A stretch of 64,000 nt of DNA from the NCBI RefSeq assembly GCF_013391105.1, contig NZ_CP058335.1:2232001-2296000 (forward strand). Direction: 5' to 3'. This stretch comes from Natronomonas salina (GTDB lineage: Archaea > Halobacteriota > Halobacteria > Halobacteriales > Haloarculaceae). This document shows positions 52,315-54,302 of this stretch, piece by piece. How positions within the stretch are numbered: position 1 is the stretch's first letter; each line of letters opens with the position of its first letter. The translations under genes were made by a program, and so were the position numbers. The notes beneath the pieces are model-generated. The model did not search any database. It was given only the letters and a program-made list of their open reading frames with translations, and was not told the origin of the DNA.

Positions 52315-52857
52315 ATGCCGAACTCGAACGCGAAGGGGGACCGCCGCGAGCGCGAACTCGTCAACGCACTCGACGATGCGGGCTTCGCGGTGATGCGGGC
52401 CCCCTCCTCCGGCAGCGCGACCGAGCGTGAACTGCCGGACGTGCTGGCCGGCGACGGCGAGACCTTCTACGCCATCGAGGCGAAGTCCTCCGCCGGCGAC
52501 CCAATCTACCTGACCGGCGAGGAGATCGAGGCGCTGGTGTACTTCTCCCGGAACTTCGGCGCGAAGCCCCGCGTCGGCGTCCGGTTCGACCGCGAGGACT
52601 GGTACTTCTTCCACCCCGGCGACCTCCACGAGACCGACGGCGGCAACTACCGCGTCAAGAAGGAGACGGCCCTCGAACGCGGCACCGACTTCGCTGAGTT
52701 CACCGGCGACTCGACGAAGGTGACCCTCGAGGAGGTGGTCGTCGGGAACGGACAGCAGGAGGACGACGAGGGCGACGACGACGAGCAGGTCCGGGACATC
52801 CTGGGCGCCCTCGAGCGCGGCGACCTCTCGGTCGACGACGCCGTCGAGATGCTGTAG
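52315..52857 (+). CDS. hjc: Holliday junction resolvase Hjc
   Basis: An archaeal structure-specific nuclease that cuts four-way junctions. The 180 residues show the PD-(D/E)xK set: [14 protein letters not shown] (Glu), [10 protein letters not shown] (Asp) and FYAIEAKSS (ExK). A C-terminal extension ([20 protein letters not shown]) with a short helix pair follows the nuclease core, as often in halophiles. A CGATTTAAGG box A sits about 25-32 nt before the ATG (leaderless). Its end is 4 nt from the stop of the convergent opsin-like gene. Hef in this window acts on related structures. Confidence 0.94.
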
Positions 52858-52861
52858 GCGG

Positions 52862-53539
52862 TCAGGCGGCGGGCGCGTCCGGGTCGGCGAGCGCCGAGAG
52901 GTTGCCGATCAGGAACCCGGCGAAGCCGACGCGGAGCAGGATGTTCACGTACTCGATGACCAGCAGCATCGTGAAGGTGTCGAGCCAGCCGACCAGCGAC
53001 AGGCCGATGGCGACGAAGACGAACCCCATCAGGAACACCAGCAGGTTCCGGAACTTCCAGTAGAGCAGCCGCCGGTCGTCGGACTGCCGCTTCGCCGCTC
53101 GCCAGACCGGGCCGAACAGCAGGTAGACGCGGGCCAGGTACGAGGCGACCATCGCACCGAGCACGAGCAGCGCCGTCCCGGCGCCGACGAGTTCGAGGAC
53201 CACGCTCGCGACCACCGACGCCACCGACAGCCCGACGAGCAGGCCAACCGAGCGGCGCGAGGCGCCGGCGACGACGGCCGCCAGGCCGAACACGACCGGG
53301 TACGCCACCAGGTCGTCGACCGTCGACGCCACGTCCAGGGGAACGTCGCCGACGGGGACCTGGAGGACGCCCAGCCCCGACAGCGCCGAACCGATCGCCG
53401 AGACGGCGACGACGCCCGCGAGGAGGTGACAGTACTTCCGCAGTTCGGGCCGCTGGAACCGCGACAGCGCGACGAAGACGACCGTCGAAAGCGCGTACAC
53501 CGCGGCGGCCGCCAGGCTGATCTGCACGTCCGTGAGCAT
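52862..53539 (-). CDS. Microbial-rhodopsin-like protein lacking the retinal lysine
   Basis: A 225-residue protein with seven predicted helices and type-1 rhodopsin landmarks. Helix C reads VDDLVAYPVVFGLAAVVAGA (aligned with DWLxTTPLLLLDL), helix E has LFGPVWRAAKRQ and KFRNLLVFLM, and helix G has EYVNILLRVGFAGFLI. In helix G the Schiff-base lysine position of bacteriorhodopsin (DVxAKVGFG) is arginine here, so retinal cannot be bound covalently. The helix C Asp85 counterpart remains, Arg82 and Asp96 counterparts do not. An alignment by eye, so a different 7-TM family is not excluded. Confidence 0.7.
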   Translation of the reverse strand: MLTDVQISLAAAAVYALSTVVFVALSRFQRPELRKYCHLLAGVVAVSAIGSALSGLGVLQVPVGDVPLDVASTVDDLVAYPVVFGLAAVVAGASRRSVGLLVGLSVASVVASVVLELVGAGTALLVLGAMVASYLARVYLLFGPVWRAAKRQSDDRRLLYWKFRNLLVFLMGFVFVAIGLSLVGWLDTFTMLLVIEYVNILLRVGFAGFLIGNLSALADPDAPAA

Positions 53540-53654
53540 ATCCGTGGCTACGCGGGAGCGCGACGATAAGCCCGGGCGTCGCTTCGGGGCTCGAAACAAC
53601 TGGTAGAACGCGGTCCGGCCGCACCGACGGCGCCGTCGGCCGGTTAGGTCGCCC

Positions 53655-54302
53655 TCACTCCACGATCATCTGGTCGCGGGGCGCCAGCCGCGAGTACGGG
53701 AAGGCGTAGCGGGGGCGCTCGTCGAGGTCGGCTTCCGCATCACCCGAGAACGGGTAGACGACCTCGACGACGGGGTCGGCGCGGGGATAGCCGTCGTTCT
53801 TCGGGTAGTCGGCGACGGTGGTGTCGGCGGCGTCGATGTATCGCTCGTCGGCCCGCTCGTCGGTGAGGCGGTAGACGACGACGGTGTCGCCGGTCTCGCG
53901 GTCGGTCGCGAGGTCGCCGCGCTCGAGCCAGCAGTCCGCACAGACCGCCGGCCCGGACTCGGGGACGAACGACTCGTGGCCGCAGATGGCGCAGTCGGCC
54001 GCCGTCATGCCGGGCGCGGGGACCCGGCGCTCGGTCACCTCGATGGCGACCCGGCGGATGTGCTTGCAGTGCTCGCCGCGGATCTCGTGGTCCGGGCAGG
54101 AGCAGTCGCTGTTCGGCAGGTCGACCAGGTACTCCGCGCCGGACTGGCTCTCGACGACGTAGCGGCCCTCGCCGACGGGCCGGACGGCCATCGACTCCGT
54201 CCAGGCGCGCGCGGAGCGTTCGTCGAGCCGTCGGGTATCGGGCGCCAGCGGGCGTCTCCGGTGAGAGTCCGATGACGCGGATGTGTGTTCCGGGTGCGTC
54301 AT
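53655..54302 (-). CDS. SWIM zinc-finger protein
   Basis: A 215-residue cytosolic protein. A SWIM zinc finger (CSCPDHEIRGEHCKH, residues about 83-97; CxC-x-CxH) is followed by a second zinc pair, CAICGHESF and CADCW. The C-terminal part is acidic with several conserved-looking tyrosines (YRLTDERADERYID; YPFSGDAEADLDERPRYAFP). SWIM domains bind DNA or protein. Similar proteins are found in many haloarchaea without assigned function. The start is immediately downstream of a long non-coding stretch carrying the composite repeat. Confidence 0.8.
   Translation of the reverse strand: MTHPEHTSASSDSHRRRPLAPDTRRLDERSARAWTESMAVRPVGEGRYVVESQSGAEYLVDLPNSDCSCPDHEIRGEHCKHIRRVAIEVTERRVPAPGMTAADCAICGHESFVPESGPAVCADCWLERGDLATDRETGDTVVVYRLTDERADERYIDAADTTVADYPKNDGYPRADPVVEVVYPFSGDAEADLDERPRYAFPYSRLAPRDQMIVE

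Follow-up and report, generated by a model that had tools for sequence, protein, structure and literature searches.

In the SRII/HtrII complex, a break of the ion pair at the Schiff base drives a movement of helices F and G towards the transducer. Type-1 opsins that have lost the retinal lysine have been described in several independent lineages. Rh-noK of betaproteobacteria and the lysine-less FArhodopsins are linked to a working proteorhodopsin or to flotillin, not to transducers, and share with the protein described here the type-1 opsin family and the missing lysine (PMC10308929). The closest described class is that of the haloarchaeal lysine-less opsin-related proteins (ORPs) of Becker et al. 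2016 (PMC4915679). Group A of that class has Arg for the lysine and Asp for W76, and a HAMP/MCP transducer adjoins 15 of 16 genes, an adjacency that is usual but is no condition of membership. Two ORPs of other species gave no retinal pigment in vitro, and the authors proposed that ORPs sense a non-light stimulus and that those without transducer linkage have non-motility roles (PMC4915679). Our literature search, covering a limited collection, turned up no functional study of haloarchaeal group-A ORPs after that paper.

A seven-helix opsin with arginine at the retinal lysine position

We analyzed a 64,000-nucleotide stretch of the Natronomonas salina genome (the window), in which an ORP gene lies in the following setting:

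52315..52857, plus strand: hjc (Holliday junction resolvase), tail-to-tail with the ORP gene (open reading frame list, locus comparison)
52862..53539, minus strand: group-A ORP, 225 amino acids, seven transmembrane helices, type-1 opsin fold (open reading frame, Pfam, AlphaFold2, alignment)
52931..52933, minus strand: Arg203 codon CGC at the Schiff-base lysine position, N. pharaonis SRII (NpSRII) K205 or BR K216 (alignment and base triplet)
53312..53317, minus strand: Asp75 and Asp76 codons in helix C; the counterion D75 is kept and NpSRII W76 is Asp (alignment)
53565..53569, minus strand: TATA-like TTATC, centered 28 nt 5' of the ATG (read from the sequence)
53655..54191, minus strand: SWIM zinc-finger-type gene, the same-strand upstream neighbor of the ORP gene; this frame is also open to 54302 (CxCxnCxH-type motif by eye)

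The ORP reading frame is intact on the minus strand, with its ATG at 53539, its stop at 52862 and 225 codons. It is coding-like by codon-position GC (0.73/0.43/0.96) and by a codon score that is positive in the ORP frame, with the same signature as the genes of this genome. The TTATC element would fit a separate ORP promoter and a leaderless transcript.

The original prediction described a seven-helix opsin-like protein and proposed a Pfam search and a structural overlay as checks, and both agree with it. The window ORP scores 34.2 bits (E 2.4e-8) with the bacteriorhodopsin profile PF01036, whose cut-off is 24.6; an NCBIfam search assigned no family. An AlphaFold2 model built with 20 relatives has a mean pLDDT of 91 and shows a B-C hairpin and seven helices (residues 4-26, 34-55, 70-90, 95-118, 120-142, 154-182 and 188-212). 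Foldseek ranks SRII/HtrII complexes at the top for this model (TM 0.86), and in VIA the model reaches Z of ~26-27 with archaerhodopsin, SRII and BR. By its profile match and its seven-helix fold with the B-C hairpin, the window ORP is a member of the type-1 opsin superfamily.

The closest relative of solved structure is NpSRII (E 6.5e-11), whose K205 aligns with Arg203, in keeping with the predicted arginine in place of the Schiff-base lysine. The only lysines of the window ORP are K35, K150 and K162; all lie outside helix G, which rules out a lysine shifted elsewhere in that helix. The other predicted landmarks were likewise recovered in the alignment: the LFGP, KFRNL and RVGFA motifs are present, the Asp85 counterpart is kept as D75, and the counterparts of Arg82 and Asp96 are altered to Ser72 and Leu86. 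The protein resembles NpSRII in fold (TM 0.86), D75, Y199 and the E-F loop motif at 22-23% identity, and it keeps D at 189 (NpSRII numbering). It differs from NpSRII in Arg203 for K205, Asn199 for D201, Ser for R72, the absence of an adjoining HtrII and the loss of the retinal cage, whose aromatics W76, W171, Y174 and W178 are D, M, V and I. Lacking both a Schiff-base lysine in helix G and the cage aromatics, the window ORP does not qualify as a retinal-binding rhodopsin, and from Arg203 and the lysine-free helix G we predict that a retinal Schiff base cannot form.

It is very improbable that the protein is a light sensor after all, holding retinal or another carotenoid-derived chromophore non-covalently. 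As such a role would have it, the protein retains both its opsin fold and the aspartate of the counterion, and lysine-less opsins can be reactivated by aminated retinal analogues, as discussed in PMC4915679. Against it stand the replaced cage aromatics, the absence of pigment in the two ORPs tested by others (PMC4915679), and the host genome, in which we found no match to Brp/Blh (PF15461), present in 118 of the 146 family genomes.

The group-A family and the place of the window copy

We surveyed ORPs in 146 genomes of the family, in 392 of the order and in the GTDB contig collection and obtained 57 distinct group-A sequences after duplicate removal. Position 205 is Arg in all 57, so that the third check proposed, on whether the arginine is fixed among relatives, also agrees with the prediction. 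Tyr is equally invariant at positions 80 and 199 (57/57 each), the latter being the transducer-contact tyrosine of SRII, and Asp occupies position 76 in 50/57. In a tree of 73 opsins, the window ORP groups with the group-A rows, apart from SRII and other opsins, on a 60-row branch with support of 100/99; its own branch is long (1.28) and its inner position is not settled by the tree. Its nearest row is the second ORP of the same genome (47% identity), followed by an N. pharaonis ORP (44%). The residue set published for group A is matched at D76, Y199 and D189, with V at position 174 where the others mostly have L. The window ORP is a group-A ORP, and thus belongs to a published class: like the other members it is haloarchaeal, carries Arg at the Schiff-base lysine and Asp for W76, has lost the cage aromatics and keeps Y199 and D189 (PMC4915679). 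The original reading of the protein is supported overall; Arg for lysine is not novel in itself, because a class published in 2016 is defined by it (PMC4915679). That the position is completely fixed, and not occupied by a mixture of residues, suggests a use for the charge.

In other branches of lysine-less opsins (L025, L026, L027, L056, L123, L088 and L121), the lysine is replaced by His, Met, Phe, Tyr or Ser. Several of these opsins are encoded next to MCP genes, and the three His-bearing sequences form one clade with full support. A plasmid search returned three distant records only, annotated 'bacteriorhodopsin' (NZ_CP096660.1, NZ_CP119990.1 and NZ_CP081960.1). At least the two Halobaculum copies match the group-A loci L119 and L114 and have Arg at the lysine position, so the label is misleading for these ORP-like plasmid genes.

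Where the flank is long enough, a transducer gene lies directly upstream of almost every group-A ORP; this does not hold for the window copy, one N. pharaonis copy and sequences at contig ends. The original prediction had already remarked on the missing transducer neighbor, and indeed no MCP gene occurs within ~6.4 kb on either side of the window ORP, unlike in the published set (15/16; PMC4915679). The solitary N. pharaonis ORP (G122:C1:2563227-2563880, L034) is similar in its Arg at K205, its lack of an adjacent transducer and its 44% identity. It differs in adjoining cobalamin-type genes and a putative HTH regulator, and its genome has CheA, SRII and Brp, unlike the host of the window ORP; this genome, from the same genus group as the host, encodes a stretch 100% identical to NpSRII. 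The putative regulator (L034:5588-6655, bacterio-opsin-activator-like by eye) lies ~200 bp upstream of the solitary N. pharaonis gene on the same strand.

The window copy also stands out in its pocket. The helix-D positions 108 and 112 are both S, unlike the Q/M/L/I and F/Y of the other 56 sequences, and position 178 is I, mostly Ala in group A. Of 28 conserved columns it deviates at 6, one of the highest counts in the set; three other sequences depart at 5-6 columns and are MCP-linked in genomes with CheA. The invariant R203, Y80, Y197 and N213 and the K-x-R-N-L motif are all retained.

The tail-to-tail arrangement with hjc is as predicted, with hjc ending at 52857 on the plus strand and the ORP stop at 52862 on the minus strand, but this neighborhood is not conserved. 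In three congeners (G117, G118 and G131), hjc and the SWIM gene stand tail-to-tail ~320 bp apart with no ORP and no recognizable trace of an ORP remnant between them, and hjc is absent from the surroundings of all other ORP loci examined. We therefore rejected the hjc linkage as a functional clue: since the interval is ORP-free in congeners, the place beside hjc is lineage-specific and says nothing on function. In two draft genomes of the genus, the hjc–SWIM interval is filled by a GC-rich palindromic repeat (CCTCGAAAGCCCTCGCGGCGCTC ... GAGGGCTTTCGAGGT; L143:2007-2534 and L145:936-1503) that looks like a small mobile or repeat element.

Two ORPs in a genome with no CheA match

The host assembly is a single contig, 99.84% complete, from which a plasmid may be missing. 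PF01036 has exactly two matches in it, both with Arg at the lysine position, so that no lysine-bearing opsin is among them. The second ORP overlaps its MCP gene (L151:7789-9378) by 8 bp in an operon-like pair. This MCP has two transmembrane segments, its external loop is very short and it lacks a ligand domain, which makes the opsin-like protein the likely sensing part. Its conserved tip motif is largely kept. An insertion in the tip was considered as decay following CheA loss and rejected, because the ORP transducer of N. pharaonis, whose genome has CheA, contains a similar insertion. Only two MCPs of the host genome score over the cut-off, the ORP-linked one and a PAS-type one (L150:4801-6228), which is the sole other transducer in this genome without CheA or CheW matches. 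On the strand of the MCP–ORP pair, ~600 bp upstream of it, lies a gene for a membrane-type histidine kinase (L151:6103-7188), a possible alternative output in the CheA-less genome.

Profile searches for CheA (PF02895), CheW (PF01584) and archaellin (PF01917) gave no match in the host genome; as a positive control, all three gave matches in Haloferax volcanii. The window ORP is thus unusual in standing alone, in a genome in which neither retinal-making nor chemotaxis genes were found. CheA occurs in 300 of 392 genomes of the order sample and in 52 of 53 genomes with group-A ORPs, the host genome being the sole exception. In a count that ignores relatedness, CheA is present in 49/50 genomes with a group-A ORP vs 251/342 others (Fisher p 2e-5), and group-A ORPs are missing from the other Natronomonas genomes that lack CheA.

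These absences fit a relic, in which chemotaxis and motility were lost and both ORP loci drift under relaxed constraint, with the solitary copy furthest along. The unmatched CheA, CheW and archaellin in so complete a one-contig genome, the single exception among 53 and the lack of group-A ORPs in CheA-less congeners all favor it, as do the long branch, the six departures and the unique pocket residues. We nevertheless find a relic somewhat doubtful. The reading frame is intact with a strong codon signature (GC3 0.96), the fold is predicted with high confidence, the invariant residues and the K-x-R-N-L motif are kept, and so, largely, is the tip motif of the paralogue's MCP; moreover, the three sequences that depart equally are MCP-linked in CheA genomes.

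A possible retinal-free sensor head and its alternatives

Our preferred reading, held tentatively, is that the window ORP is a retinal-independent seven-helix sensor subunit, related to the transducer-linked ORP and probably docking on that transducer. At the place of the protonated Schiff base in SRII, Arg203 would put a buried positive charge that is always present, and this charge could pair with the helix-C acids D75/D76. A non-light stimulus, either a ligand or a membrane state, would perturb the Arg–Asp pair and thereby move helices F and G in the way that light moves them in SRII. Docking in trans on the paralogue's transducer, the window ORP would offer an alternative input with a changed pocket. 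Identity between the two paralogues is 82% in the E-F loop, 62% in helix F and 68% in helix G, and 26% in helix A, 21% in B-C and 35% in helix E. The transducer-facing parts are therefore those most like the paralogue, which points to probable docking in trans, and together with the changed pocket (S108, S112 and I178) this favors a role as a second input to the one ORP transducer. The likeness of F and G is weak evidence for a shared partner, because these helices are conserved family-wide (means of 58% and 59% over all pairs). Docking, moreover, is something we infer, and the window ORP has no adjacent transducer. The absence of CheA, CheW and archaellin matches fits a relic equally well, and the long branch (1.28), the departures at 6/28 columns and the Asn at D201 also speak against a working sensor head. 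A relic, or a sensor acting outside taxis, is nearly as likely, and both are close rivals of the sensor-head reading.

Anabaena sensory rhodopsin, proposed to act with a partner outside taxis, offers an analogue for the second of these. The window ORP would then work alone or with a soluble partner or kinase and regulate something besides motility, which we regard as rather unlikely. The isolation of the gene, the TATA-like element 28 nt 5' of its ATG, the chemotaxis machinery not found in the genome and the second solitary group-A ORP in N. pharaonis are consistent with it, and so are the non-motility roles that Becker et al. propose for unlinked ORPs (PMC4915679). However, the two solitary ORPs differ in their surroundings and the hjc/SWIM neighborhood is not conserved, the invariant transducer-contact tyrosine is kept, and group-A ORPs are otherwise tied to CheA genomes (49/50 vs 251/342).

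If the sensor-head reading holds, its output cannot be ordinary chemotaxis, since CheA and CheW are not detectable in the genome. The broader claim that group-A ORPs are here uncoupled from chemotaxis, as retinal-free receptors with another output and two ORPs sharing one transducer, we consider unlikely.

To the published family, our survey adds the fixation of Arg, the association with CheA and one exception to that association, the host genome. That every group-A sequence has Arg (57/57) speaks for a positive functional role rather than a mere loss of lysine. Type-1 opsins free of retinal are candidates for a microbial counterpart of ligand-sensing GPCRs. As group A is tied to CheA genomes (52/53), the host genome is a natural test of the taxis hypothesis. 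If its ORPs are expressed and under selection without CheA, that hypothesis is not sufficient by itself; decay of these ORPs would instead support it.
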